64,000 nucleotides of DNA from an uncultured Holophagaceae bacterium (lineage in GTDB: Bacteria; Acidobacteriota; Holophagae; Holophagales; Holophagaceae). The notes beneath the pieces are model-generated. The model was not told the DNA's origin. It saw nothing but the letters and a program-made list of their open reading frames with translations, and searched no databases. The stretch is from the NCBI GenBank assembly GCA_903843705.1, contig CAIMQW010000298.1, forward strand, positions 1-64,000. The letters run 5' to 3'. Of the stretch, positions 49,179 through 64,000 are shown one piece after another. The position numbers and the translations under genes are program-made. The stretch's first letter is position 1; each line of letters begins with the position of its first letter.

Positions 49179-49255
49179 GGTCCCGTAGCTCAGCTGGATA
49201 GAGCATCAGACTACGAATCTGAGGGTCGGACGTTCGAGTCGTCTCGGGACCACCA
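49179..49255 (+). tRNA. tRNA-Arg (anticodon ACG)
   Basis: The cloverleaf is complete. The acceptor GGTCCCG pairs with CGGGACC, the anticodon stem TCAGA/TCTGA holds loop CTACGAA (anticodon ACG, codons CGN), and the T arm has GTTCGAGTC. The discriminator A and CCA are encoded. The gene marks the left edge of an accessory island, which suggests its 3' end is an integration site. Confidence 0.97.
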
Positions 49256-49262
49256 AGAAAAC

Positions 49263-49285
49263 AGAGGCACTATATAGGTGCCTCT
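49263..49285 (+). terminator. tRNA-Arg terminator hairpin
   Basis: AGAGGCAC (49263-49270), loop of seven, GTGCCTCT (49278-49285), then TGTTAATTTT. This is a typical intrinsic terminator just downstream of the tRNA. Confidence 0.8.
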
Positions 49286-49322
49286 TGTTAATTTTAGACA
49301 TGCGGGTTTGCCCAAAAATGGC

Positions 49323-49342
49323 TGGGTGGCAAATGGGTGGCA
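49323..49342. repeat. Two direct TGGGTGGCA repeats, possible integrase arm sites
   Basis: TGGGTGGCA occurs at 49323-49331 and 49334-49342, eleven bases apart in phase, 70 bases from the tRNA 3' end. Short direct repeats of this kind near a tRNA-linked junction are typical of integrase arm sites. No tyrosine integrase gene is in the window, so this is only suggestive. Apart from this, the terminator and the palindrome at 49523-49586, the gap 49256-49627 holds no supported gene. Confidence 0.4.
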
Positions 49343-49522
49343 GATCGGGGAAGAATTGCCACAACTCGCCTCGCTTGGGTGCCGGAAGAGAGCTTCGTAC
49401 GGTTCCACGGAATGTGACTTACAAATCCTGGGCTCTGAAAAAATTACGATGCTCCGGTGGGAAGCCAGATCCCCCAGGTTTGTCCCGAGAAGTCTGAGCT
49501 TGGCCACCTATGCGCACCTATA

Positions 49523-49586
49523 GCTCCGTTTGGGTCCCACCGTCACCCCCGCGAGGACACGGGTGACGGTGGGACCCTTACGGAGC
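49523..49586. other. Large palindrome with 24 paired bases per arm
   Basis: GGGTCCCACCGTCACCC (49532-49548) pairs perfectly with GGGTGACGGTGGGACCC (49561-49577). After a TT/TT internal loop, GCTCCGT (49523-49529) pairs with ACGGAGC (49580-49586). It lies just left of the convergent unknown gene's stop. It could be a bidirectional terminator or a mobile-element structure. Confidence 0.7.
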
Positions 49587-49627
49587 GTGCCAAAGCAGGA
49601 GTGCCGGAGAAGGTACAGTGGTTTGCC

Positions 49628-50353
49628 TCAGTACTCTGTTCGCTCCACGACCGTGGCCACCAGATGGCACACCATGGACACCCGCTCCGGTGTATCGGCG
49701 TCAAGGTAGTAGTCCGAAGCGATAAGCGCTCCCAAAATGTTCTCGCTGTGGGTCAACCACTGGAGAGTTCGAGCGACAGGCGGTACCGCCCAAAAGGTTT
49801 GAAGTTGTGTGATGCACCAACTCAAAGCAAGGGCGCTCTCAGACTCGACAGAGACGTCCTGGAGCCTGTAGGTGAGGTCCAGGAAATCGCTAACGGCCTC
49901 GTCTGACTTCAGGTACCGGGTGAGAGCACGGAAATCGAGGTGAATCCTAGGACTACTGATCGCCAGCCCTTCTATTGTCAGATGCTGGGTCAACGCCGAG
50001 CCCACCTGCCTCTGGGCCAAGCGAACCCTATCAGCAAGCTGGTAGTAGGTAGCTTCGTCCACGGCTTCGAACAGCGTTTCCAGAGCCTCAGGTTGAGTGA
50101 GCCACCTCGTTGCACGTGCAACGGTTCTCGAAGACCAATACTGCCCAAGGTGTTCGACAATCCGGGCCAAAGACCACATCGCTTCTTCTCTTGGTGTCAG
50201 ACATCCAAGTCGGCGGTAGCCGCCTCTGGCGCTGTCATACGGTCCGAGTTCGATGCTGCCCGCGACTTCGAAGAACATGTCTTCCCCAAGCACCATTTCG
50301 ACCAGGGTCGGAATGAAGGCTGCATCGTCTGGGATTGCCGGTTCAGGCTGCAT
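49628..50353 (-). CDS. Unknown island protein
   Basis: I do not recognise this 241-residue protein. It is soluble and mostly helical. Segments include FIPTLVEMVLGEDMFFEVAG, REEAMWSLARIVEHLGQYW and two related WLT helices (RATRWLTQPEALETLFEAV and ARTLQWLTHSENILGALI). These suggest an internal duplication of about 130 residues. The ATG giving MQPEPAIPDD has GGAG seven bases upstream. The frame runs on through a tandem DNA repeat (giving FPLTS repeats), which I take as untranslated. It is the first gene of the island and is divergent from hsdM. Confidence 0.6.
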   Translation of the reverse strand: MQPEPAIPDDAAFIPTLVEMVLGEDMFFEVAGSIELGPYDSARGGYRRLGCLTPREEAMWSLARIVEHLGQYWSSRTVARATRWLTQPEALETLFEAVDEATYYQLADRVRLAQRQVGSALTQHLTIEGLAISSPRIHLDFRALTRYLKSDEAVSDFLDLTYRLQDVSVESESALALSWCITQLQTFWAVPPVARTLQWLTHSENILGALIASDYYLDADTPERVSMVCHLVATVVERTEY

Positions 50354-50416
50354 CGTCGCTCCAGGGGCCAACGGTCGGCCCATAACCTTCGGGTCCCCGC
50401 CTCCCATGGGTCGGAC

Positions 50417-50467
50417 CGGGAACGACGTGAGCGGGAACGACGTGAGCGGGAACGACGTGAGCGGGAA
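50417..50467. repeat. 15-bp tandem repeat, 3.4 copies
   Basis: CGGGAACGACGTGAG repeats at 50417-50431, 50432-50446 and 50447-50461, with a partial fourth copy. There are no spacers, so it is not a CRISPR. A copy with one change lies at 57563-57577, on the other side of the restriction genes. The rest of 50354-50742 has no supported gene and must hold the divergent promoters. Confidence 0.85.
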
Positions 50468-50742
50468 GCGAAGCGGGTAGAGCCAGGGGCGGCGGAAGAG
50501 GACCCGAAGTGGCCCGACCGGATGGACCCTGGGGCAGGGATGAAGGCGGGCCAACTCGAAGTGGTCAGGAATTAATGGACACCAAATGGCAAATAGGTTG
50601 GTGTATCCGTCTGTCATGCCTGTACAGACTGAGGTTTCGGGCGACATTTCAAATCGGACCCTGCTAGGTTCTATGCATACCTGACAGAGCGTTTGTGACC
50701 CGTCCTGCCGCATTTCCACCCACCACGGAGTCCGTGATCCCC

Positions 50743-52197
50743 ATGTTCGAGCAGACCTTCAAGAACATCGACGACATCCTGCACAAGGATGCCGGGTGCA
50801 CCAGTGAACTGGACTACACGGAGCAGTCCTCCTGGCTGCTGTTCCTGAAGTACCTGGATGCCCTGGAGGAGGACAAGGCCACCGAGGCTGCCCTGGACAG
50901 CAAGACCTTCAGCTTCATCCTGGACAAGCCGTTCCGGTGGGGGACCTGGGCGGCGCCGAAGGGCAGGGATGGGAAACTAGACCACAACAAGGCCCTGACG
51001 GGGGATGACCTCCGGGACTTCGTGAACCAGAAGCTTTTCCCCTACCTGCACGGCTTCAAGCAGAAGGCCAGCGGACCGGACACCATCGAATACAAGGTCG
51101 GGGAGATCTTCGGGGAGATCAAGAACCGCATCCAGAGTGGCTACAACCTCCGGGAGGTCATCGACCTGGTGGACGAACTCCGATTCAAGTCCCAGGACGA
51201 GAAGCATGAACTCTCCCACCTATATGAAGCCAAGATCAAGAACATGGGCAACGCCGGGCGTAACGGCGGCGAGTATTACACGCCCCGGCCCCTTATCCGG
51301 GCCATCGTCCAGGTGGTTCAGCCCAAGATCGGTCAACGCATCTATGACCCGGCAGTGGGGTCGGCAGGATTTTTGTGCGAGTCCTTCGAGTTCCTGAAGC
51401 AGAAGAAGGGGCTCACCGTCACGGAGTCCCAGACCCTCCAGAAGAAGACCTTCTACGGCAAGGAGAAAAAGAGCCTGGCCTATGTCATCGGGATCATGAA
51501 CATGATCCTCCACGGCATCGACGCCCCGAACATCATCCACACGAACACCCTGGCCGAGAACCTATCGGACATCCAGGAGAAGGACCGCTACGACATCGTG
51601 CTGGCCAATCCGCCCTTCGGCGGTAAGGAGCGGGCTGAGGTCCAGCAGAACTTCCCGATTCGGACGGGCGAGACCGCCTACCTGTTCCTCCAGCACTTCA
51701 TCAAGAGTTTGAAGGCCGGGGGCAGGGCAGGCATCGTCATCAAGAACACCTTCCTCAGCAACAACGACAACGCCTCCATGTCCCTACGGAAGAAGCTGCT
51801 GGAGGAGTGCAACCTACATACGGTCTTGGACTGCCCCGGTGGCACCTTCCAGGGTGCGGGCGTTAAGACCGTGGTGCTGTTCTTCGAGAAGGGTGCACCC
51901 ACCCAGAAGGTTTGGTATTACCAACTCCAGCCAGGCCGGAACATGGGGAAGACCAACCCGTTGAACGATGAGGACCTGTCCGAGTTCATGGCCTTGCAGA
52001 AGACCCTGGCAAACTCGCCCAAGTCCTGGTCCGTGGATATAAAGGCCATTGATATGGCCAGCTTTGACCTGTCGGTGAAGAACCCCAGCGGAGGCGAGGA
52101 AGTTGTCCTTCGGACCCCGGAAGACATCCTGGATGAGATCGCGGCCCTGGATGCCGAGAGTGCCGAGGCGTTGGCAACCATCCGGGGGCTGTTGTGA
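50743..52197 (+). CDS. hsdM: Type I restriction-modification system, methyltransferase subunit HsdM
   Basis: The 484-residue subunit methylates adenine at the N6 position to protect the host sites chosen by HsdS. It has the N-terminal HsdM helical domain (FEQTFKNIDDIL), the SAM motif DPAVGSAGFLCESFEF and the catalytic DIVLANPPFGGKE. The start is the ATG giving MFEQTF; the frame extends 16 codons upstream without family similarity. Its stop overlaps the hsdS start (GTGA). Confidence 0.95.
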   Translation: MFEQTFKNIDDILHKDAGCTSELDYTEQSSWLLFLKYLDALEEDKATEAALDSKTFSFILDKPFRWGTWAAPKGRDGKLDHNKALTGDDLRDFVNQKLFPYLHGFKQKASGPDTIEYKVGEIFGEIKNRIQSGYNLREVIDLVDELRFKSQDEKHELSHLYEAKIKNMGNAGRNGGEYYTPRPLIRAIVQVVQPKIGQRIYDPAVGSAGFLCESFEFLKQKKGLTVTESQTLQKKTFYGKEKKSLAYVIGIMNMILHGIDAPNIIHTNTLAENLSDIQEKDRYDIVLANPPFGGKERAEVQQNFPIRTGETAYLFLQHFIKSLKAGGRAGIVIKNTFLSNNDNASMSLRKKLLEECNLHTVLDCPGGTFQGAGVKTVVLFFEKGAPTQKVWYYQLQPGRNMGKTNPLNDEDLSEFMALQKTLANSPKSWSVDIKAIDMASFDLSVKNPSGGEEVVLRTPEDILDEIAALDAESAEALATIRGLL

Positions 52198-53360
52198 AGG
52201 CTGGGTGGGAAAGGAAAAAACTTCGAGATGTCTGCAGGCTCATTAATGGACGAGCGTACAGCAAACCAGAATTGTTGAATTCAGGGAAATACCCAGTGCT
52301 CCGCGTAGGTAATTTTTTTACTAACAACAGTTGGTACTACTCTGACCTTGAGCTTGATTCAGATAAGTATTGCGAAGACGGTGATCTGCTATATGCCTGG
52401 TCCGCTTCGTTTGGTCCGCGAATTTGGAACGGGCCGAAGGTCATATTCCATTACCACATCTGGAAGGTAGATCCTGATCAGTCCCTAATTGACAAGGGCT
52501 TCCTATTCAATTGGTTTCTATGGGATATGGAGCAGATAAAACTTGATCAAGGAACTGGAACAACAATGATGCATGTTGGGAAAGGTTCCATGGATGACCG
52601 GGATATTTGGATTCCCCCACTTCCCGAGCAAAAGCGCATTGTTGCCATCCTCGACGAAGCCTTCAACAGCATCGCCATTGCGAAGGCTAACGCCGAACAG
52701 AACCTTCAGAATGCTCAAGATGTGTTTGAGAGTTTCCTTCAATCCACCTTCAGCCAGTCCGGCAAAGGTTGGGTTGCCAAGAGGCTGTCAGATGTATGCA
52801 GAGAAATTACTGTTGGTCATGTCGGATCAATGGCCAAGCGCTACCAAGAGAGTGGTATCCCTTTTCTTCGTTCCCAAAACATCCGCCCGTTTGAAGTGTC
52901 GCTAGACAATGTCGTATTCATTGATTATGCGTTCCATTCTGAACTGAAAAAGTCACGACTACGCCCCGGTGACCTCGCCATTGTCAGAACTGGGTATCCC
53001 GGTACGGCGGCGGTCATCCCATCAGACCTCGTTGATGCAAATTGTAGTGATCTCGTCATTGTTAGACCTGGCAAAGAAATCAATCCGCACTACCTCGCCG
53101 CATTTTTCAACTCCACCTACGGCAAGAGTCTTGTGCTTGGGAAAATAGTTGGCGCGGCCCAGAAACACTTCAATGTCACATCGGCGAAGGAAGTCGCGTT
53201 GCACATCCCACCAATGCCCTACCAGCAAGCCTGTGTTGATAAGGTGGATACAATCCGATCCGAAACCCAACAATTAGAATGCATCTATCAACAGAAGACC
53301 GCTGCCCTTGATGAACTGAAGCAGTCCCTCCTTCACCGTGCCTTCAACGGCGACCTTTGA
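52194..53360 (+). CDS. hsdS: Type I restriction-modification system, specificity subunit HsdS
   Basis: The 388-residue subunit has two target-recognition domains, each followed by a long helix: WIPPLPEQKRIVAILDEAFN in the middle and IPPMPYQQACVDKVDTIRSE at the C-terminus. The DNA turns visibly AT-richer here than hsdM and hsdR. This is typical of HsdS genes that swap recognition domains. Start is GTG overlapping hsdM. The target sequence cannot be read from the protein. Confidence 0.92.
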   Translation: MKAGWERKKLRDVCRLINGRAYSKPELLNSGKYPVLRVGNFFTNNSWYYSDLELDSDKYCEDGDLLYAWSASFGPRIWNGPKVIFHYHIWKVDPDQSLIDKGFLFNWFLWDMEQIKLDQGTGTTMMHVGKGSMDDRDIWIPPLPEQKRIVAILDEAFNSIAIAKANAEQNLQNAQDVFESFLQSTFSQSGKGWVAKRLSDVCREITVGHVGSMAKRYQESGIPFLRSQNIRPFEVSLDNVVFIDYAFHSELKKSRLRPGDLAIVRTGYPGTAAVIPSDLVDANCSDLVIVRPGKEINPHYLAAFFNSTYGKSLVLGKIVGAAQKHFNVTSAKEVALHIPPMPYQQACVDKVDTIRSETQQLECIYQQKTAALDELKQSLLHRAFNGDL

Positions 53361-53382
53361 ACCGAATAACAAAAGGACAGAC

Positions 53383-54303
53383 ATGACCAGCGACGGAAAG
53401 AGTTTGGAAGCGCTGGTTGCCTTCGTCGAGAAGACACTTCTTCCTGGAGGGTTTCATGTCGTATCAAATCAGAAAATTTTCAATGACGACGGGATTCAAA
53501 TAGCCGAATTCGACATCGAGATCAGAGGTAAAGTTGGAACCACTGAATTTATTTGGCTAATTGAATGTCGAGACCGTCCAAGCGAGGGCCCTGCGCCTGG
53601 ATCATGGATTGAACAACTTGTTGGGCGTCGAACTCGTTTCGGTTTCAACAAGGTGACTGCTGTCTCCACGACCGGGTTTACAGCCGGTGCCATCGAATTC
53701 GCCTCTCAACAAGGGATAGAACTTCGAGAAGTGGCATCAGTCTCGCCCGAATCGTTTGGATCCTGGTTGGTACTTCGCCACATAAGCCAGGTGGAGCAGC
53801 TTGTGAACCTGGAGGCCATGCAATTGAATATTGCCCCTTCCGAAGATGGCGAGCGAATGGTGGCACTTGCAGAAATCCTTAATTGCACTCTGATCTCTGA
53901 AAAGCTGCTCAAGGCGGTCAAGACTGGAGAAATCGTACGAGGGTGTGATGCATTCTGTGCTGCGGTAATGCAAACAGAATTACCCTTTGATGGTCTATTA
54001 ATGAATGGTCCGGGGAAGGAAGTTCGGCTTCAAGTCGAATATCCGAGCGATGATCATTTCGTCGTCGAAACTCCTGCTGGTCCAATCCGCATTTTGTCCA
54101 TCAATTTTATTGGGACATTGTCCATAAAGGAGACCCTCCTTCCGCTTGTCGATACGCATGAATATCGGCATATCGAGACGGGTTCCCCTATCTCTCAACA
54201 TGCGGTATTCGCAACTACTGAGGTTCATGGAACGAAGGTGAACTTTGAATTTCATAAACTTCCTGAATCTGGCCAAGGCTACCTGGTGATTAGAAGAGCC
54301 TAA
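53383..54303 (+). CDS. Mrr-like nuclease-fold protein inside the type I operon
   Basis: The 306-residue protein starts with a domain like the Mrr/PD-(D/E)XK restriction fold. AEFDIEIRGKVG supplies the Asp, WLIECRDRPSEG occupies the ExK position but reads ECR, and QLVGRRTRFGFNKVTAVSTTGFTAGAI is the following helix and strand. The normal lysine is thus arginine, so cleavage is uncertain. The C-terminal half is not recognised. AAAAGGACAG precedes the ATG. It lies between hsdS and hsdR, with 22 and 33 base gaps. Its base composition is AT-rich like hsdS. Confidence 0.65.
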   Translation: MTSDGKSLEALVAFVEKTLLPGGFHVVSNQKIFNDDGIQIAEFDIEIRGKVGTTEFIWLIECRDRPSEGPAPGSWIEQLVGRRTRFGFNKVTAVSTTGFTAGAIEFASQQGIELREVASVSPESFGSWLVLRHISQVEQLVNLEAMQLNIAPSEDGERMVALAEILNCTLISEKLLKAVKTGEIVRGCDAFCAAVMQTELPFDGLLMNGPGKEVRLQVEYPSDDHFVVETPAGPIRILSINFIGTLSIKETLLPLVDTHEYRHIETGSPISQHAVFATTEVHGTKVNFEFHKLPESGQGYLVIRRA

Positions 54304-54336
54304 GATTTCTGAGTAACAGTTTGTGAATGGGTACAA

Positions 54337-56646
54337 ATGAACGAGGCCGAAACCCGAGCAGAGCACATTGACCCCGCCCTGAAGGCGGCGGGGTGGGGCG
54401 TGGTCGAGGGTAGCCGTGTCCTGCGAGAATATGGCATCACGCAAGGGCGGCTCCAAGGTGGCGGCAAACGGGCCAAGGCTGAGGTCGCGGACTATGTGCT
54501 GGTATACCGAAACACCAAGCTGGCTGTGGTGGAGGCCAAAGCCTGGGATAAGCCCTATACGGAGGGCGTGGGCCAGGCCAAGAGCTACGCCGCCAAACTG
54601 GCCGTCCGGTTCACATACGCCACCAACGGGCAGGCCATCTACGGCATGGACATGGAGATGGGGCAGGAGGGGGATGTACCGGTCTTCCCCAGCCCGGATG
54701 AACTCTGGAACCGGGTCTACGCCAAGGAGAACGCCTGGCGGGATCGGTTCTCTGCCGTCCCCTTCGAGGACAAGGGCGGCTCCCATCCTGGCCGCTACTA
54801 CCAGGACATCGCTGTCCTGAGGGTCCTGGAGGCCATCACAGCCGGGAAGGATCGCATTTTGCTCACCCTGGCCACGGGCACGGGCAAGACCTTCATCGCC
54901 TTCCAGATCGCCTGGAAGCTGTTCCACAGCCGCTGGAACCTGACCGGTGAACCCACCCGCAGGCCCAGGATTCTCTTCCTGGCTGATCGGAACATTCTGG
55001 CTAACCAAGCCTACAACGCCTTCTCGGCCTTTCCGGATGACGCATTGGTTCGAATCGCGCCGGACGAGATCCGCAAGAAGGGCAAGGTCCCAAAGAACGG
55101 GAGCATCTTCTTCACCATTTTCCAGACCTTCATGTGCGGCCCGAACGATTCGGAATATTTCGGGGAATACCCACCGGACTTCTTCGACTTCATCGTGATC
55201 GATGAGTGCCACCGGGGCGGGGCCAAGGACGAAAGCTCTTGGCGGGGCATCCTGGACTACTTCGCCCCAGCGGTGAAGCTTGGCCTCACGGCCACACCCA
55301 AGCGCACGGACAATGTGGACACCTACGCCTACTTCGGGGAGCCGGTGTTCGTCTATTCCCTGAAGGAAGGCATCAACGATGGCTTCCTGACGCCCTTCAA
55401 GGTCAAGCAGATCGCCACGACCCTGGATGAGTATGTCTACACCCCGGATGACATCCTGATTGAAGGGGAGGTCGAGGAAGGGAAGCGGTACACCGAGCCG
55501 GACTTCAACAGGATCATCGAGATTAAGGAGCGAGAAGCCTACCGGGTGAAGGTCTTCATGGAGCAGATGACCCAGGATGAAAAGTCCCTGGTGTTCTGTG
55601 CCACCCAGGCTCACGCCCTGGCGGTGCGTGACCTCATCAACCAGATGAGCACCAGTACCAACCCGCTCTACTGTGTCCGGGTCACGGCCAATGACGGGGC
55701 CTTGGGTGACCAGCACCTGCGGGACTTCCAGGACAATGAGAAGACCATCCCCACTATCCTGACCACCTCCCAGAAGCTATCCACCGGCGTGGATGCCCGG
55801 AATATCCGAAACATCGTCCTCATGCGACCGGTGAACTCCATGATCGAGTTCAAGCAGATCATCGGACGGGGTACCCGGCTCTTCGAGGGCAAGGACTACT
55901 TCACCATCTACGACTTTGTGCAGGCCCACCACCACTTCAACGACCCGGAGTGGGATGGGGAACCTGAGGAACTGGAGCAGGCCGGTGATGGACCCAAGCG
56001 GATCGTCGAACAAGCCGCCCCCGATCCGAAGGAGAAGGATCCAGACCTTGAAAGGACGCAGAAGACCAAGATCAAGTTGGCCGATGGGAAGGAACGGACC
56101 ATCCAACACATGATGTCCACCACCTTCTGGAGCGCCGATGGCAGGCCCATGTCGGCGGCCCAGTTCCTGGAGAACATGTTTGGGGCCCTGCCGGAGTTCT
56201 TCAAGAATGAGACCGAGCTAAGGCTCATCTGGAGCAAGCCAGATACCCGGAAGGCCCTGCTGGCGGGCCTATCGGACAAGGGGTTTGGCCGGGACACCAT
56301 GACGGAGATGCAGCGGATCATCGAGGCCGAGAACAGTGACCTGTTCGATGTGCTGGCCTATGTCGCCTTCGCCCTGCACCCCGAAACCCGCGAGGCCCGT
56401 GCCGACCAGGCCAAGGTCCTCATCCACAGCAACTACTCTGACAAGCAGCGAGGTTTCCTGGAGTTTGTCCTGGCCCAGTACGTGGAGCAGGGCGTGGACG
56501 AACTAGACCAGGAGCGTTTGTCACCCCTGCTCAGGCTGAAGTACCACAACGCCATTCAGGATGCCGTTGCCGACCTGGGAAGCGTGGAGGAGATCAGGGA
56601 TGCCTTCACCGGCTTCCAGCGGTTCCTGTATGAATCTGTTGGATAG
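54337..56646 (+). CDS. hsdR: Type I restriction-modification system, endonuclease/translocase subunit HsdR
   Basis: The 769-residue subunit has the N-terminal PD-(D/E)XK nuclease (VADYVLVYRNTKLAVVEAKAW), the SF2 helicase motifs LATGTGKTFIAFQ, VIDECHRGG and LTATPKRTDNVD, and the C-terminal motif QIIGRGTRLFEG. It translocates DNA and cuts unmethylated targets with HsdM and HsdS. Its length matches the EcoEI/type IB-like form. It may end with an overlapping mini-ORF. Confidence 0.94.
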   Translation: MNEAETRAEHIDPALKAAGWGVVEGSRVLREYGITQGRLQGGGKRAKAEVADYVLVYRNTKLAVVEAKAWDKPYTEGVGQAKSYAAKLAVRFTYATNGQAIYGMDMEMGQEGDVPVFPSPDELWNRVYAKENAWRDRFSAVPFEDKGGSHPGRYYQDIAVLRVLEAITAGKDRILLTLATGTGKTFIAFQIAWKLFHSRWNLTGEPTRRPRILFLADRNILANQAYNAFSAFPDDALVRIAPDEIRKKGKVPKNGSIFFTIFQTFMCGPNDSEYFGEYPPDFFDFIVIDECHRGGAKDESSWRGILDYFAPAVKLGLTATPKRTDNVDTYAYFGEPVFVYSLKEGINDGFLTPFKVKQIATTLDEYVYTPDDILIEGEVEEGKRYTEPDFNRIIEIKEREAYRVKVFMEQMTQDEKSLVFCATQAHALAVRDLINQMSTSTNPLYCVRVTANDGALGDQHLRDFQDNEKTIPTILTTSQKLSTGVDARNIRNIVLMRPVNSMIEFKQIIGRGTRLFEGKDYFTIYDFVQAHHHFNDPEWDGEPEELEQAGDGPKRIVEQAAPDPKEKDPDLERTQKTKIKLADGKERTIQHMMSTTFWSADGRPMSAAQFLENMFGALPEFFKNETELRLIWSKPDTRKALLAGLSDKGFGRDTMTEMQRIIEAENSDLFDVLAYVAFALHPETREARADQAKVLIHSNYSDKQRGFLEFVLAQYVEQGVDELDQERLSPLLRLKYHNAIQDAVADLGSVEEIRDAFTGFQRFLYESVG

Positions 56647-56803
56647 GATCCCGGTCCAATTTTGGCTTTGTCGAAATCGCGTTGCACATGGCCTACTTGT
56701 GCCCCAGGAGTTCAATAGGGGCATTTCGGAGGTAGCCCTGGAGTGCCTGCTGATCCTTGGGCTACTTCGAGCGACCAATGGAGCTTCGGAACCTGAAGGT
56801 TGA
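56630..56803 (+). CDS. Possible mini-gene with a HEPN-like RNxxxH motif
   Basis: The ATG at 56630 lies inside the end of hsdR and gives 57 residues, with RNRVAH matching the Rx4H motif of HEPN ribonucleases. The rest (VALECLLILGLLRATNG) is a hydrophobic helix. It could be a remnant of a HEPN gene, or a chance frame. No good ribosome site apart from coupling to hsdR. Low confidence. Confidence 0.3.
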   Translation: MNLLDRIPVQFWLCRNRVAHGLLVPQEFNRGISEVALECLLILGLLRATNGASEPEG

Positions 56804-56810
56804 GGAGAAC

Positions 56811-57392
56811 CTAGGATTCCTTCACAGTGGTGGCGGCAGCAAGGCTGGCTGCGAGTAATTCGATTCGAGCATCCTTTTCGGCGAGGCGTTCCCCCATCAT
56901 TGCTTCCGAGGCTTCGAGTTTCGCCCGCAGGTAGCCGACCTCTTCCGAGAGTTTGACCAACTGTGTTTGGGTTACCTTATCCTTGTCGTTCGCTTCGGAT
57001 AGCTGCGTCTTTAGAGAATCCATTTGGATCTCCAACTCGCGCATATCTTCCTCATTCTTATCCTCGGCTTGTTCGATTACGGTCTTCAGCCCAGCGGCCT
57101 GTATGGCAAGTGCCTCTCTCTGGGGAGCAAGTTCGGCAAGGGCGAGGATCTGGGCGATGGACCAAACCTTCGCGAACTCGGTTTGGATTTCCTCTGGGAT
57201 TGGCACAGGCGCTGCCAACAACTCCTGGGACGATGACTGTTTAATCTTCCAAGCCCTGATATGGGGCAAGAGCGTACCAAAACTACCTGTGCCAAGTTCA
57301 TCCCGCACAGAATTTCTCGTCACCTTCACACCCCGGGCGTGGACAGCTTCAATGGCTGCGAGGATCTGTTGTTCTGTCACTCCAACTCGTGG
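56811..57392 (-). CDS. KfrA-like coiled-coil DNA-binding protein
   Basis: The 193-residue protein has the KfrA N-terminal DNA-binding domain (VTEQQILAAIEAVHARGVKV and TRNSVRDELGTGSFGTLLPH) and a long coiled coil from about residue 90 to 180. KfrA proteins bind their own promoters on plasmids and may help in segregation or phage-related functions. The ATG giving MPRVGVTEQQ has GGAGG six bases upstream. It is convergent with hsdR, and repeated DNA lies ahead of it. Confidence 0.8.
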   Translation of the reverse strand, partial: PRVGVTEQQILAAIEAVHARGVKVTRNSVRDELGTGSFGTLLPHIRAWKIKQSSSQELLAAPVPIPEEIQTEFAKVWSIAQILALAELAPQREALAIQAAGLKTVIEQAEDKNEEDMRELEIQMDSLKTQLSEANDKDKVTQTQLVKLSEEVGYLRAKLEASEAMMGERLAEKDARIELLAASLAAATTVKES

Positions 57393-57412
57393 CATTGAGA
57401 ACCTCCAGGATT

Positions 57413-57470
57413 TCATATCATATCATATCGTTTCGTTTCGTTCGTTCTAATAAAAGTATGAAACGAATAA
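57413..57470. promoter_or_regulatory. Repeated leader of the KfrA-like gene, likely operator
   Basis: The leader holds runs of a short unit: TCATA repeated three times and TTTCG repeated twice, then TTCG and GAAACGAAT. KfrA-type proteins bind repeats next to their own genes, so autoregulation is a reasonable inference. Confidence 0.5.
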
Positions 57471-57512
57471 TTGGAAGGCCTCTTGGAATTGGCTTCCTAT
57501 GGCGGCAGTTAT

Positions 57513-57577
57513 CCTGCTGAGGCAGGAACATCCAGCAGGATCCAGGGTCCCGTGGGTTGAACCGGGAGCGACGTGAG
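57513..57577. repeat. Hairpin and single copy of the 15-bp motif
   Basis: TCCTGCTG near 57513 pairs with CAGCAGGA ending at 57541. CGGGAGCGACGTGAG (57563-57577) matches the left tandem repeat unit in 14 of 15 bases. The rest of 57393-57687 has no gene I can support. Confidence 0.6.
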
Positions 57578-57687
57578 TGGGAAGGGGGGTTACCCAGGAG
57601 TGTCCGAGGCGCTACGAATCCAGGTTTAACCTCATTCCTGTTGGAAGCCTCACGCTTGCCCTGGCCACAAGGGGTGGGAATTTATTT

Positions 57688-58254
57688 TCAACCGGCGTCC
57701 CTGAGGTACGAATACAGGGTCTCTCGGGAGATTTTGAACTCTCTAGCCAGGGCTGATTTTTTCTCTCCGGCCAGGGCCCGAGAACGCAATTCCTCGGCCT
57801 TGGCTGGGTTCAGGGATGGCTTGCGGCCCTTGTAGACATTGCCTTTGGCCTTTGCGAGGGCGATGCCTTCCGCTTGGCGGGAGCGGATTATTGATCGTTC
57901 AAATTCGGCCACCCCGCCCATGATCGACAGCATCAGTCTGGCCATCGGGTCATCATCACCTGTGAAAGTGAGGGATTCCTTCACGAAGGTCACCCTCACT
58001 CCTTTGGAAGTTAGATCGGTCACGATCTTGAGAAGATCTGATAGGTTTCGAGCCAGCCGGTCCATGGAATGGACGAAGAGTTGGTCACCCTCACGGAGAA
58101 ACCGGAGCATTTCCTGTAGGACAGGCCGAAGCTGGTCTTTCCCTGAGGCCTTCTCTTCAAATACGCGATCCAGGGGCAACGAGTCCAGTTGGCGTTCTGT
58201 GGATTGGGTGATTGAACTGACCCTGAGATACCCGACCTTCTGACCGGCTGACAT
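57688..58254 (-). CDS. Serine recombinase (resolvase/invertase family)
   Basis: The 188-residue enzyme has the catalytic Ser in VGYLRVSSITQSTERQL, the central VHSMDRLARNLSDLL and AEFERSIIRSRQAEGI, and a C-terminal helix-turn-helix (SALAREFKISRETLYSYL). Length is that of Tn3 resolvases and DNA invertases. The intact motifs suggest activity. The upstream DNA (58255-58442) is AT-rich with CTGTC...GACAG near 58297-58336, a possible crossover site. It may mobilise, resolve or invert part of the island. Confidence 0.92.
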   Translation of the reverse strand: MSAGQKVGYLRVSSITQSTERQLDSLPLDRVFEEKASGKDQLRPVLQEMLRFLREGDQLFVHSMDRLARNLSDLLKIVTDLTSKGVRVTFVKESLTFTGDDDPMARLMLSIMGGVAEFERSIIRSRQAEGIALAKAKGNVYKGRKPSLNPAKAEELRSRALAGEKKSALAREFKISRETLYSYLRDAG

Positions 58255-58442
58255 TTTGCACTCCTGTAAAGTTGGGTTCTAGACCACATTAAGAAACTGT
58301 CAAAAATTGGAAATTGAGACCCTTGTTCGACAGTAATTGAGGAATTCCTTAGCCCTGGTTGAGGTATACCCAAACCTGACGGATACGAGTTGACCCCCTA
58401 GGGATAGGCGGGGTGGTATTGGTTGTCCATTCGAGCGTTCAG

Positions 58443-59054
58443 CTAGGCCCTCATTGCGACAACTGTCATGTCGTCTGCTCTGCCAGATCTTCCAGCTTCA
58501 TCCAGGATCAGGGCTGGGAATTCTGAAAAGTGCAGAGATAAGGATCTACCCCAGAGCCTTTGCAGTTTGGAGAGATTCAACGGAGTCCAGGCTCCATCAG
58601 ACATCAAGAGAAGGATGTCTCCATGGCTGATCTGCCTATGAATCGGGAAGGGGGTGGCCTCCCCACTCCCCAGGCGATGCTTGGAGGCATCCTCACTCAA
58701 GATTTGGATCTCGCCCCCGAAGGGAAGGTAGTAGAGGCGCGAGTCACCTGCGCAGACCCCCACAACCCGATCCTTGATTGCTGCCACGGCCACGAAGGTA
58801 CTCTGTGGGCCACCAAGCAGGGCGGAGTCCAACAGGCGAGTCCAGTTCACCCAATTTGGGAAAAGCTCGAAATCCTCAACAGAAGCCTGTGCCGCCAGGC
58901 CTTCTAGGATTTTGAGGGCCCTCTTGGCTACCTGCCCAGCATTACCCGAACCATCACAGAGGGCGGCATAGGGCACCGAGCCTCTCCCTATCAGATAGGC
59001 GTCCTCGTTGGAGGTTCGCCCATCTTGAAGTCGGGAACTCGCAAAAATCTCCAT
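58443..59054 (-). CDS. PP2C-family protein phosphatase
   Basis: The 203-residue protein is a compact PPM/PP2C serine/threonine phosphatase. TSNEDAYLIG, AALCDGSGNAG, GVCAGDSRLYYL, LLLMSDGAW and the C-terminal ADDMTVVAM carry the metal-binding aspartates. The usual DGxGG reads DGSGN. No kinase, FHA or von Willebrand A gene is adjacent in the window, although such partners are common. The next gene upstream encodes a lipoprotein. Confidence 0.85.
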   Translation of the reverse strand: MEIFASSRLQDGRTSNEDAYLIGRGSVPYAALCDGSGNAGQVAKRALKILEGLAAQASVEDFELFPNWVNWTRLLDSALLGGPQSTFVAVAAIKDRVVGVCAGDSRLYYLPFGGEIQILSEDASKHRLGSGEATPFPIHRQISHGDILLLMSDGAWTPLNLSKLQRLWGRSLSLHFSEFPALILDEAGRSGRADDMTVVAMRA

Positions 59055-59096
59055 GGGTCCTTCAATTACAAAAACTGGCTGAGCGTAGTGAATGTT

Positions 59097-59588
59097 CTAT
59101 TTCGAGGTAAGGAAGGCCACCTCCACATGGCTAGCTATTCCTACTTCTTCCTCCGACACACCGGAAAGGCGACAGGGGACTCTATCTATTGAATTACTGG
59201 AGACAAGGTTGATCGTTTCAGTTCCAGTCGCCAAAATAAGGCCATAGGTAGAAATTAGTTCGAATTTTACGGTTGCACTGGGTGCGGAAAACGAGAATGT
59301 GCTTTTGTATCTTCCATAATCTTGATAACTTCTATTAACATTAGCTAGGCAAACAACATCAAAGTTGGTGATATTCTCACCATTCTGCCCCTTGGTCCTT
59401 CTTGGAATTATCGCTGCTTTGATTTCACCAAGTTTTGCAGTCATAAATACCGAATCACCACCCCAATATAGTGTATTACCAATGCCCGTATCGGCTGCAC
59501 GGATCACTTTGGGCTTTGGCCGCCAGGGAGCATCGGATCCACATGCTGCCGTAAGCATCAGAATGGACATAGTGAGTACCCACTTCAT
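59097..59588 (-). CDS. Small lipoprotein of unknown function
   Basis: The 163-residue protein begins with a lipoprotein signal (MSILMLTAACGSD, lipobox LTAAC). The rest is a beta-rich soluble domain with two cysteines (VVCLANVN and VPCRLSGV). I do not recognise the family. The DNA is AT-richer than the chromosome. It lies 42 bases upstream of the PP2C gene on the same strand and may be co-transcribed with it. Bases 59589-59742 show no gene. Confidence 0.65.
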   Translation of the reverse strand: MKWVLTMSILMLTAACGSDAPWRPKPKVIRAADTGIGNTLYWGGDSVFMTAKLGEIKAAIIPRRTKGQNGENITNFDVVCLANVNRSYQDYGRYKSTFSFSAPSATVKFELISTYGLILATGTETINLVSSNSIDRVPCRLSGVSEEEVGIASHVEVAFLTSK

Positions 59589-59858
59589 GCCACGCCCCCA
59601 TCGGCACTAGGCCGAAATCGGTATTTCTCTGCTGCCAGTCTACGCTAGGGCGGTCTCGGTGGGGTCCTTCATCATTAGCGCTCATGGATACCCAGCCACA
59701 CCCAGTCCTGACGGTGGGAAATTGCCAGGATCGTGACAGCTGCTCAACGACAATTACTCGTCCCCACTGGCGACAATGACAACTCCCCATAAGGGGTAGC
59801 GCTTAGGTGGCAAAGGGGTCACGGTCAGCCTGCGTCTGCACGCAGGGTGGGCGGTGCC

Positions 59859-61352
59859 ATGGGCCGGATAACTGATCAGCAGGTGCGGAAGTTGATGGAG
59901 GAGATGGCCAAGCACGGGGAGTTGGGGCTTGCAGCAATGCGAGCCGGCATGAACCGAACCACGGCCCGGAAGTATCTGCGGGCGGGGAAGCCACCTTCCG
60001 AGTTGCAGTGCCCCAGAACATGGCGAACCCGGCCAGACCCCTTTGCGGAGGACTGGTTGGACATCGAACTTCGCCTGGCTCAGGCCCCTGAACTGGAGGG
60101 GCTGGCCCTGTTCGAGGACCTGATGCGGCGCTGCCCGGGACGTTACCAGGAGGGCCAAGTTCGGACCTTTCAGCGGCGGGTGAAGGAGTGGCGTGCGAGG
60201 CACGGCCCAGAGAAGGAAGTGTTCTTTCCGCAGAACCATCGACCCGGGGAAGCACTTCAGACCGACTTCACCCATGCCACAGAGTTGCGAATCACCATCC
60301 AGGGTCAAGGCTTTGCCCACCTGCTATGCCACGTGGTTGCGCCCTATTCCAACTGGCAGTGGGCAACAGCCTGCCATTCGGAATCAATGCTGGCCCTACG
60401 CCGGGGGATTCAATCGGCTTTGATTCAACTCGGCCGGGTCCCAGAGTTCCACCAGACGGACAACTCCACGGCGGCAACTCACGATCTCGCCACCGGGAAG
60501 CGGGGCTTCAACGAGGCGTATCTGGCGCTGATGCGCTACTTCGGGATGACACCGCGGACAACGGCCGTTGGCGCTAAGGAGCAGAACGGTGACGTGGAAT
60601 CGGCCAACGGTGCCTTGAAACGGCGCCTACGACAGCACCTGCTTCTGCGTGGATCCAGTGACTTCGAGTGTGTCGAAGCCTATGAACGCTGGGTCCAGGA
60701 AGTGTGTACCCGGGCCAACGAGCGCCGCCGCGTGAAGGTCGCCGCTGAATTGGCGGTGATGCGCCACCTATCGGCGCGGGCCTTCCCGGACTACGACGAG
60801 GTGATGGTCAGGGTGAGCCAGGAGAGCACCATCCGTATCAAACGGAACAGCTACTCAGTGCCCACACGCCTGATCGGAGAGCAGGTCCGGGTGCGGATAT
60901 TCGAGCTACGCCTGGAGGTCTGGTACGGCCAGCAGCAGGTACTGAGCCGGGACCGCCTTCTGGGCGTGAACCAGCACCACATCGACTACCGGCATGTGAT
61001 TCATTCCCTGCTACGCAAGCCAGGGGCCTTTGCCCGTTACCGCCACCGGGATGACCTGTTCCTGAGCCTCACCTGGCGGAAGGCCCACGAGGCCCTGGTC
61101 CAGAAGGAGGGGAACCGACGGGGTGAGGTGTCCTACCTCCGACTTCTCTACCGGGCAGCCATGGGAATGGAGTCCGAGGTGGAGGCGTCACTCGCACAGC
61201 TCCTGGAACAGGGTGAGGTCCCGACGCCGGACAAGGTGAAGGCACTGCTGGGGGGTACGGCGCCCGTGGAAGCGCCCGACATGGAAGCCCCGGAAGTGGA
61301 CCTGCGCGCTTACGACGCATTGATGCGGGATGGGTGGAGGGAGGCCATATGA
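59859..61352 (+). CDS. istA: IS21 transposase IstA
   Basis: The 497-residue transposase has an N-terminal helix-turn-helix, then a DDE catalytic core: the first Asp in GEALQTDFTHATELRI, the second in FHQTDNSTAATH and the Glu in QNGDVESANGALKRRL. All three residues are present, so it may be active. Start is ATG at 59859; a GTG four codons earlier is also possible. It overlaps istB by four bases (ATGA). Confidence 0.93.
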   Translation: MGRITDQQVRKLMEEMAKHGELGLAAMRAGMNRTTARKYLRAGKPPSELQCPRTWRTRPDPFAEDWLDIELRLAQAPELEGLALFEDLMRRCPGRYQEGQVRTFQRRVKEWRARHGPEKEVFFPQNHRPGEALQTDFTHATELRITIQGQGFAHLLCHVVAPYSNWQWATACHSESMLALRRGIQSALIQLGRVPEFHQTDNSTAATHDLATGKRGFNEAYLALMRYFGMTPRTTAVGAKEQNGDVESANGALKRRLRQHLLLRGSSDFECVEAYERWVQEVCTRANERRRVKVAAELAVMRHLSARAFPDYDEVMVRVSQESTIRIKRNSYSVPTRLIGEQVRVRIFELRLEVWYGQQQVLSRDRLLGVNQHHIDYRHVIHSLLRKPGAFARYRHRDDLFLSLTWRKAHEALVQKEGNRRGEVSYLRLLYRAAMGMESEVEASLAQLLEQGEVPTPDKVKALLGGTAPVEAPDMEAPEVDLRAYDALMRDGWREAI

Positions 61353-62110
61353 GCCGAGAACTGTTTGAACTTCTGCGGGAATTAAAACTTCCTAGCTTTG
61401 TGGCCAGGCATGGGGAGTTAGCTGCCGAAGCCGAGCGGGCCGGCTGGGGATTTGAGCGTTTCCTGCGGGCATTGGCCGAGGCCGAGATCGATCAGCGCCA
61501 CCAGAAACGCCTGGAACGGTTACTGAAAGCCTCCAAACTGCCGCTGGAAAAGAGCCTAGCCACACTCGACACGGCCCGGTTACCGGTGCCGGTGCGGCGG
61601 ATGCTACCGACCCTCTGCGACGGGGGGTTCGTTGAACGGGCCGAGAACCTGCTGGCTTTCGGCCTCCCTGGCCGAGGCAAAACTCACTTGGTCTGTGCCA
61701 TCGGCTTAGAGCTGATCCAGCGGGGGCACACAGTCCACTTCACTCCCACCTACGCACTGGTGCAGCGGTTGCTGGCCGCGAGGAGGGACCTCGCCCTGGA
61801 GAAGGAGTTACACCGACTGGACGCCTTCGACGTCCTGATCCTCGACGATATCGGCTATATCCAACAGGACCGTGACGAGATGGAAGTCCTGTTTACCCTA
61901 TTGGCCGAGCGCTATGAGCGCCGCAGCGTTGTCATCACCTCCAACCTCGTGTTCTCCCAGTGGGACCGCATATTCAAGGACCCGATGACGACAGCAGCGG
62001 CCATTGACCGCATCGTCCACCATGCGGTGATCCTCGAGCTGACAGGTCCCAGCTACCGAGCGGAGGCTGCGAAAGCCCGAATGCCGGAGGACCCTAACGC
62101 CAACCACTAA
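61349..62110 (+). CDS. istB: IS21 helper ATPase IstB
   Basis: The 253-residue AAA+ protein assembles on DNA and stimulates IstA. It shows the family's N-terminal helical part (LFELLRELKLPSFVARHG), Walker A FGLPGRGKTH, Walker B VLILDDIGYIQ and the sensor segment VVITSNLVFSQWDRIF. GGAGGGAGG precedes the ATG. Confidence 0.94.
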   Translation: MSRELFELLRELKLPSFVARHGELAAEAERAGWGFERFLRALAEAEIDQRHQKRLERLLKASKLPLEKSLATLDTARLPVPVRRMLPTLCDGGFVERAENLLAFGLPGRGKTHLVCAIGLELIQRGHTVHFTPTYALVQRLLAARRDLALEKELHRLDAFDVLILDDIGYIQQDRDEMEVLFTLLAERYERRSVVITSNLVFSQWDRIFKDPMTTAAAIDRIVHHAVILELTGPSYRAEAAKARMPEDPNANH

Positions 62111-62171
62111 TAGCCCCCACTGGGACCATGAACCCTCTCCGGCCGTGGGGAGGTGTAATTGTCGTTGGCTA

Positions 62172-62695
62172 TTTTATGTAGTTGACTGACTGAGGGTTGA
62201 CCAAATCTCTGGCCACCAAAACTGACCCCCTGCGTCAAAACTACTGACCCCCTAGAGGCGAGGCGGGCGACCGACCGATGGGGTGCCCTCCGCTTCGGCC
62301 TACGGCCTCCGCTCCAGGCACCCCATCGGTGTTACCCCACTCATGGGGAATCCTAATTGTCGTTGAGGGGGAAATCTAGTTGACGCCAAGGAGACAGCCC
62401 ACGGGAACAGGCGGGGTCAACCTGTATCGGCCCAAGTTCCAATCAGCACTCTGCAGTTCCGATCAGTACTGCAGCAGCACTGATCGGCAATGCTGATCAG
62501 AACACGCCTCCTGCCTTTGATGGGTCAACCTGATTTGGTCCCACCATGTTTCATGACAGGCGGGGTCTGCGTTAGCGAGGCTTCTACGTGGAAGTAGAAC
62601 CGCCCCTGTGGCGGAGTTATCGGTCTGGTCCGAGTTGCACTAGAAGTGGGTTCCCATTTTGGACAGGAAACCTCTTTTGTTGAGGAGGGCCCACC
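62172..62695. repeat. Gene-free stretch of nested IS-end repeats and a hairpin
   Basis: No gene is seen. A 13-bp stem, CCGATGGGGTGCC (62275-62287) with GGCACCCCATCGG (62317-62329), forms a hairpin. ACTGACCCCCT occurs twice (62220-62253). GGTCAACCTG occurs at 62415-62424 and 62523-62532. Direct and inverted copies of a GTTCCGATCAGTACT-type unit lie at 62436-62503. GACCCCCTAG followed by AGGCGGG also recurs near 58392. These look like ends of related insertion sequences stacked beside each other. Confidence 0.6.
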
Positions 62696-63091
62696 ATGGA
62701 AAGTCTAGGCCCAAAACCCCCGAAAGCCCCCGAACCCCCAAAGCCGCCGAAGTTCAAAGGGCCGGAGGGCCCCGTCAAGCCAGAGAGGCCGTCCTCACCC
62801 TCTGGGCAGGGGGGTAGCGGGGCCCAGGCCCCTCCAAAGCCGAACTTGCACCCTCCCAAGGCCCCGCCATCGCCTGCCAAGCCAGCAGCCCCGCCAGCGC
62901 CTCCGAAACCTCCAGCCCCGCCGAAACCTCCGGTTCCAGGAGGGCACTCATCGGCCACTGCCCTGTCTCAGGTGATGACGCTGCCCGAATACCTCAAGAG
63001 CATCGGGCTACAAGACCCTGGTAGTGGTGGGAATCCGGACACACCGAAGGGTGTATTCAACCCCAACCGCATCCCTCCCAAGGAGTGGTGA
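62696..63091 (+). CDS. Proline-rich small protein
   Basis: The 131-residue protein is very rich in Pro, Lys, Ala and Gly up to about residue 80, with many PPKP and PKPP units, then a non-repetitive tail (ATALSQVMTLPEYLKSIGLQ and NPNRIPPKEW). A clear AGGAGG lies seven bases before the ATG, so it is likely to be expressed. No signal peptide. It could be a linker-like or surface-binding protein; no family is recognised. Confidence 0.6.
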   Translation: MESLGPKPPKAPEPPKPPKFKGPEGPVKPERPSSPSGQGGSGAQAPPKPNLHPPKAPPSPAKPAAPPAPPKPPAPPKPPVPGGHSSATALSQVMTLPEYLKSIGLQDPGSGGNPDTPKGVFNPNRIPPKEW

Positions 63092-63107
63092 AGGGGTGGA
63101 ACAAATG

Positions 63108-64000
63108 TCAGGCCTTTGGGTTCTTCCATGTCCATCCTTCCAGGAGTACGTTTAGCTCCTCCTCATCCGAACTAAACAATTTGGGAACCTTATTGTCTTG
63201 ATCCCAAGACAGTCCATGGACCCCGATGACCTGGGATCTATCAGAGTCCGCCCACCGCAGAGCCACACGGCCATAGCCATCCCGCTCAGTCCAGATCTTG
63301 TCACCGCTACAGTAGAGGTTGTCAGCCCATTCGTAAGCGAGGTTGAGTCCCTTGGTCGTCATCAAGCCATAGAACGAAGCCAAGCTTTTCGGATTCTTGG
63401 CGAACTTAAGGGAGTGGAGCTTCTTGGTGTGCCACACCCAAAGCATAGCCATTTGGAATCGGATGTACCAACGGTCGTGGGAATCCACCATGTTGGCCCA
63501 TTGACGCCTCGTCTTGGGGTCAGTGGGATTCACGGGCAACAGGTCAGTGTGATATCCACACAGGACATTCCAATGCCTCAGCGGAGCAGTATTGAAGTTC
63601 TCTGCATACCAAGACGTAATGACTCGCATGTCTGTGAATAAGGTATAAGCCTCATTCTCACGCCAGATCCTGTATTCCTTTGAACCAAGATCCTCATCAG
63701 ACTTTTCGTCTTGATAGAAGCCACCCTTACCATTGCCCGTAGGTTCCCAGCCCACTGTGGTGGGCTGTTCCTCTTGGACGCCCGTAGGGCTGCTTGGAGG
63801 ACAAGAGGATGAAGATGGGCCAATAGAAGGCCCAACGCCCGAAGGGCTTACCTCCGCAGGAGCATCGTTAGACGCCGCCGCCCGATCGGGCGGCAAGACA
63901 TCCGAAGGATCCGTCTTGGGACTCTCATTCTGAGTCCCGTCTAAATCCTGTCCTAGTCTAGGATCTTCATCCGATCCTGTCTTAAATCCAGTATTAGTCC
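63108..64000 (-). CDS. Partial unknown protein, cut by the right edge of the window
   Basis: The frame is open from its stop at 63108 to the right edge, so the true start lies outside the window; 296 codons are visible. The visible N-terminal 110 or so residues are disordered (Ser/Pro/Asp-rich). The rest is an aromatic-rich globular domain with segments YRIWRENEAYTLFTDMRVI, SHDRWYIRFQMAMLWVWHTK and GLNLAYEWADNLYCSGDKIW. I do not recognise the fold. It is convergent with the proline-rich gene. Confidence 0.65.
   Translation of the reverse strand, partial: TNTGFKTGSDEDPRLGQDLDGTQNESPKTDPSDVLPPDRAAASNDAPAEVSPSGVGPSIGPSSSSCPPSSPTGVQEEQPTTVGWEPTGNGKGGFYQDEKSDEDLGSKEYRIWRENEAYTLFTDMRVITSWYAENFNTAPLRHWNVLCGYHTDLLPVNPTDPKTRRQWANMVDSHDRWYIRFQMAMLWVWHTKKLHSLKFAKNPKSLASFYGLMTTKGLNLAYEWADNLYCSGDKIWTERDGYGRVALRWADSDRSQVIGVHGLSWDQDNKVPKLFSSDEEELNVLLEGWTWKNPKA

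Follow-up and report, generated by a model that had tools for sequence, protein, structure and literature searches.

A predicted PD-(D/E)XK protein in the exchangeable hsdS–hsdR gap of a type I restriction–modification operon

What is a nuclease-like protein doing between hsdS and hsdR of a type I restriction–modification operon, and does it belong there? The question arises from a stretch of 64,000 nucleotides (the window) from an uncultured Holophagaceae bacterium, in which a reading of the letters had singled out an additional gene with a PD-(D/E)XK-like domain, a replaced catalytic lysine and an unrecognised C-terminal half (the original prediction). We examined the gene, its operon, its relatives and the corresponding gap in related operons.

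The operon and its probable island

Four genes follow one another on the plus strand: hsdM (50740–52197; 485 amino acids; PF02384, 5.9e-64, and PADLOC MTase_I), hsdS (52194–53360; 388 amino acids; PF01420, 1e-33), the gene under study, here called the cargo gene (53383–54303; 306 amino acids), and hsdR (54337–56646; 769 amino acids; NF046051, PF04851 and PF08463). The HsdR protein scores 829 bits against the NCBIfam profile of the EcoAI/FtnUII family (cut-off of 550), and the host operon is an EcoAI-type type I restriction–modification system. The cargo reading frame is open from its ATG start, is preceded directly by a stretch that resembles a ribosome-binding site (AAAAGGA) and lies 22 bp from the hsdS stop codon and 33 bp from the hsdR ATG. 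Its placement between hsdS and hsdR, as originally described, is therefore upheld by an intact frame and by profile matches of its neighbours. The GC content of the cargo gene is that of hsdS (0.48), and hsdM and hsdR have values of 0.59–0.60. Among operons of the same genus, HsdM is 89–91% identical and HsdS 27–35% identical overall; the 3′ end of hsdS (57–82 bp) is conserved in DNA.

A tRNA-Arg(acg) gene (49179–49255, plus strand) is probably the left edge of a genomic island that carries the operon. The GC content is about 0.70 before this gene, 0.58 just after it and 0.50–0.60 on to the end of the window (49179–64000). Directly 3′ of hsdR lie genes for a KfrA_N-type plasmid protein and a serine resolvase (56811–58254, minus strand), and recombinase genes also occur near related hsd operons on plasmids of Methylomagnum, Vibrio campbellii and Shewanella. 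The island further contains an IstA/IstB-like pair of an IS21-type insertion sequence (59847–62110, plus strand; read by eye from translations) and a PP2C/SpoIIE-like phosphatase gene (58443–59054, minus strand; profile score below the cut-off). In Vibrio, the cargo gene has a relative (L003) that adjoins genes for a kinase and a PP2C phosphatase, a parallel that is possibly a coincidence.

Two domains and an arginine in the active site

The cargo protein matches the Pfam family Mrr_cat (PF04471) over residues 12–114 with 22.3 bits, barely above the cut-off of 21, and 28 of 29 homologues match the same family (E values up to 0.1). An AlphaFold2 model built with 29 aligned homologues has a mean pLDDT of 92.2 and a pTM of 0.78. 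Compared with the PDB using Foldseek, this model finds AF1548 (1y88, E = 7e-5), AspBHI, EcoT38I, MspJI and Can2, with a probability of 1.00 for AF1548, AspBHI, MspJI and Can2; each alignment spans only about 110–120 residues. Viral ‘restriction endonucleases’ rank among the top structure matches in a viral library. Residues 1–118 (53383–53736, plus strand) are accordingly assigned to the Mrr_cat family as a predicted PD-(D/E)XK domain, on a sequence match that is weak and a modelled structure that is clear, and the possibility that the gene is unrelated to such folds, which would have overturned the original prediction, falls away.

The predicted active site comprises E9 (codon at 53407), D44 (53512), E61 (53563) and R63 (53569). 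As had been noticed from the letters, the lysine of the ExK motif is replaced: the codon at 53569–53571 is CGA, within E61-C62-R63, and the cargo protein thus lacks the canonical (D/E)xK lysine of the superfamily. E9, D44, E61, C62 and R63 are identical in all 29 homologues, which come from about ten phyla. Most homologues were found in a genome scan with the pattern WL[IL]ECRDR or [SA]WIEQL[VI]G, so that the invariance of E61, C62 and R63 is inflated by the ECRDR in the pattern; E9 and D44 lie outside both patterns. The ECR motif is also present in relatives found independently of the patterns, namely a Cupriavidus plasmid copy, the relatives from Vibrio and Rhizobium (L003 and L004), and L043, L044 and L046, these three coming from a scan that was free of the bias and covered 396 genomes of the phylum of the window. 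A single relative found without the ECR pattern has ECK instead (L045). Because ExR recurs in relatives found without that pattern, the arginine is an old and fixed trait of this branch rather than a sign of decay.

The substitution may slow or abolish hydrolysis, and a literature search for PD-(D/E)XK nucleases with such a change turned up nothing useful. Given that E9, D44 and E61-x-R63 are invariant and that the relatives found without the pattern bias nearly all have ExR, a working variant nuclease seems likelier than a dead regulator.

The remainder of the protein (residues 126–306; 53758–54300, plus strand) has no match in Pfam, NCBIfam, PADLOC or PHROGs. Modelled separately it reaches a pLDDT of 92.9, and this model matches no fold in the PDB (best E = 0.26). 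Structure prediction of both halves, which the original prediction had proposed, thus gives a PD-(D/E)XK fold for the first and, for the second, a confident model that leaves it as unrecognised as it had seemed. Mean column identity is 0.59 across residues 1–118 and 0.24 across residues 126–306, a contrast that would be expected of a fixed catalytic part joined to a variable part for recognition or sensing. No fusion of the C-terminal domain to other domains was found in the 396 genomes of the phylum. One homologue (L028) was considered as a fusion protein and rejected: read by eye, the extra part runs on across other sequence and enters an aminotransferase-like gene, probably because of a frame shift.

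The N-terminal domain shares both profile and fold with the Mrr_cat family, which includes E. coli Mrr and the MspJI/AspBHI group, and AspBHI and MspJI, both among its structure matches, are modification-dependent enzymes. Unlike members of that family, however, the cargo protein has its catalytic domain at the N terminus rather than the C terminus, has no Mrr_N or SRA-like domain, carries ExR rather than ExK and ends in an unrecognised domain. EcoKMrr, a type IV enzyme, consists of an N-terminal winged-helix Mrr_N domain followed by a C-terminal Mrr_cat domain (PMC3874153), whereas the cargo protein has no Mrr_N match and so differs in architecture from Mrr proper. Relative to the MspJI family, in which an SRA-like N-terminal domain precedes a C-terminal Mrr_cat domain, the order is reversed.

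Occupants of the hsdS–hsdR gap

An HsdR search of the 396 genomes recovered 16 operons at 63–100% identity, that of the window included, and the hsdS–hsdR gap could be read in 15 of them (again with that of the window, HsdR identity of at least 63%). Four of the 15 gaps are empty (9–16 bp), six hold protein-coding cargo of five kinds, two have about 300–350 bp without a gene, and three contain degenerate or repeat-like sequence, one of these with an IS200-like transposase. An operon of the same genus, whose HsdR is 92% identical, carries the defence reverse transcriptase Drt4 in this position (L077, 4859–6601, minus strand; PADLOC, 1.8e-157), and two others of the genus have an empty gap (L078 and L079). 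A Bro-N protein of the candidate family PDC-S13 (5.6e-118) occupies the gap in L080, also of this genus, and in L089; L083 has a Fic protein (SoFic, 3.1e-56); and L085 has a PDC-S02 nuclease candidate (4.4e-147) together with a DUF6946 protein. This second cargo gene of L085 (6936–7718, plus strand) has no PADLOC model and is possibly another uncatalogued defence gene.

Plasmid operons with the same HsdR family show a comparable variety: Phd/PIN toxin–antitoxin pairs in Methylomagnum and Aquincola, PDC-S02 nucleases in Nostoc and Calothrix, a VapC toxin–antitoxin pair in Geminocystis, a protein with ATP-binding character and only a weak match to Argonaute-associated PADLOC models in Picosynechococcus (L102, 3806–5221, plus strand), and an empty gap in Crinalium and Vibrio gigantis. 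Because related and plasmid operons are either empty or differently occupied, the hsdS–hsdR gap is a recurrent site of exchangeable cargo, of which the gene in the window is one occupant. The cargo of sister operons is unrelated to it and mostly belongs to known or candidate defence families, which supports and extends the original idea of an accessory gene. Another type I operon with this gene in the same position, which that idea had called for, was found neither among the related operons nor in the neighbourhoods of homologues; the family occurs in the gap once only among the sampled operons.

Traces of past exchange were sought as copies of the hsdS end or the hsdR start within gaps, relative to 200 shuffles, all of which were exceeded in four gaps. 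In L085, 51 bp of the hsdR start are fused to 57 bp of the hsdS end between the two cargo genes (slot 929–1025 after hsdS); L089 has 35 bp of the hsdR start to the left of its cargo; and L086 and L087 have 90–93-bp copies of the hsdS end. No such scar was found in the slot of the window itself. The copies look like scars of cargo accretion; recombination of one hsd operon with another at two conserved stretches, the end of hsdS and the start of hsdR, could explain them.

That type I operons can harbour defence genes, including between hsdS and hsdR, has already been published. The cargo gene resembles PrrC, the rlo genes of C. jejuni, DarTG2 in EPEC and TgvAB in VPI-2 in lying within a variable slot of an hsd operon, but it belongs to another family, has no match in PADLOC-DB 2.0.0 and is usually found alone elsewhere. 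DarTG2 occupies the same gap, and its site between hsdS and hsdR has been called a potential recombination hotspot (PMC12255303). TgvAB, a modification-dependent, GmrSD-like type IV system, lies within a type I operon (PMC11411939) and likewise places one restriction-type system inside another; it consists, however, of two proteins of another family and its activity was shown experimentally, whereas the cargo gene is known from sequence and models. The PDC-S02 cargo of L085, Nostoc and Calothrix (YhcG-type PDDEXK, about 300–345 amino acids) is also of the PD-(D/E)XK type and lies in the same gap, but it is a separate family, for which the protein of the window gives no match. Embedded defence candidates in type I operons are also the subject of Payne et al. 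2024, as cited in PMC11411939. The family is absent from PADLOC-DB 2.0.0, and no paper on it was found in a search that did not extend to that preprint.

Solitary relatives and the likely role of the protein

Relatives of the cargo protein were found at 34 genome loci, on three viral contigs and on one Cupriavidus plasmid. Most of the 34 match across nearly the full length, indicating conservation far beyond chance. The protein has no match in PADLOC, NCBIfam or PHROGs, nor in E. coli genomes and phage records, and a single-sequence search of viral contigs returned no relatives. PDB sequences searched by phmmer and by profile gave no real match, the profile search returning only a designed Rossmann protein. 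The spread over phyla is patchy, and the protein of the window has no supported sister in the tree.

Matches to HsdM, HsdS or HsdR were found near none of about 37 other homologues in the available flanking DNA, which covers several kilobases on both sides for about half of the loci and is cut by contig ends for the rest. The homologues share no conserved neighbour beyond identical copies of the Cupriavidus plasmid and common gene families. Two (L007 and L035) are separated by about 4.4 kb from a phage portal gene (one PHROG) and adjoin phage DNA methyltransferases, and one on a viral contig (L109) comes after a long protein of repetitive sequence and a KilA-N-like reading frame, as read by eye. 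With no hsd genes nearby, no shared neighbour and phage-linked copies, the family typically consists of solitary, mobile genes: it is independent of type I systems and some of its members reside in prophages. Solitary homologues lie mostly outside obvious defence islands. PADLOC PDC models do not match the protein of the window and give only scattered weak matches to homologues (best, 0.0011). As the family is also absent from the defence libraries searched, the case for a defence role rests on its embedding and on its carriage by prophages.

We consider it probable that the gene encodes a solitary nuclease directed against phages and occupies the hsdS–hsdR gap as exchangeable cargo, in the manner of DarTG2 and TgvAB. 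The N-terminal domain, with its fixed E-D-E-x-R site, would cut nucleic acid, most likely DNA, and the fast-diverging C-terminal domain would recognise the target or sense infection. The protein probably acts alone and is presumably expressed together with the type I enzyme from one transcript; it might cover phages that escape this enzyme, for example those with modified DNA. From known type I chemistry, the HsdM of the operon should methylate adenine; a general cutter of m6A-containing DNA would therefore be harmful here, and a modification-dependent version should seek something else. More tentatively, and as a distinctly less probable proposal, the family may be a new single-protein defence system in which a PD-(D/E)XK nuclease with arginine as a standing catalytic residue is coupled to a domain for sensing or specificity whose fold is absent from solved structures. 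Such a protein would serve on its own, also in prophages, and as an add-on to type I operons.

Could the protein instead be catalytically dead and regulate restriction, an alternative raised in the original prediction, or bind DNA? Arginine does stand in place of the catalytic lysine throughout the family, yet all acidic residues of the active site (E9, D44 and E61) are kept and invariant, R63 is fixed rather than drifting, and most homologues have no adjoining hsd system to regulate, all of which makes this role improbable. About equally improbable is a chance insertion, which the original prediction had named as a ground for refutation: a solitary gene on the move would have ended up in the hsdS–hsdR gap without any tie to defence, functional or selective. 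The turnover of the slot does leave scars and non-defence debris in some operons, including the IS200-like transposase and gene fragments. Half of the concern stands, in that the family was found in the slot at this locus only. The slot itself, however, is a recurrent cargo site, the sister operons fill it richly with known or candidate defence families, and the frame is intact and fits the spacing of the operon.

Slightly less probable still are two readings in which the protein is held in check until infection. One is a guard like PrrC, a latent toxin that HsdMRS silences and that is freed when a phage anti-restriction protein disables the complex. The location invites this reading, since prrC lies in the EcoprrI type IC operon and T4 Stp triggers the release of its product (PMC3874165). 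PrrC is, however, invariably linked to type Ic systems, with rlo genes also embedded in type I operons (PMC2610378), whereas the cargo family shows no constant type I linkage, which counts against a guard; Pfam, moreover, gave only Mrr_cat, with no ABC-type ATPase domain or other PrrC-like feature. The other is a ligand- or damage-activated nuclease resembling Can2/Card1, which would cut RNA or nick DNA once an infection signal is bound by the C-terminal domain, and would bring about dormancy rather than restriction. Can2 has one of the solved folds nearest to that of the N-terminal domain, and the C-terminal half forms a divergent domain of its own; yet no CARF or other known ligand-binding domain was found, and the model of this half has no PDB match.

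A solitary nuclease carried as exchangeable cargo thus remains the reading that we favour. It would extend the set of genes that travel inside type I operons by a nuclease-like family that is uncatalogued, and its ExR site poses a testable question about PD-(D/E)XK chemistry. Within one genus, the same operon has a slot that is empty or that holds Drt4, a Bro-N candidate or the protein described here, and this varied occupancy means that the hsdS–hsdR gap can be used to find more defence genes.
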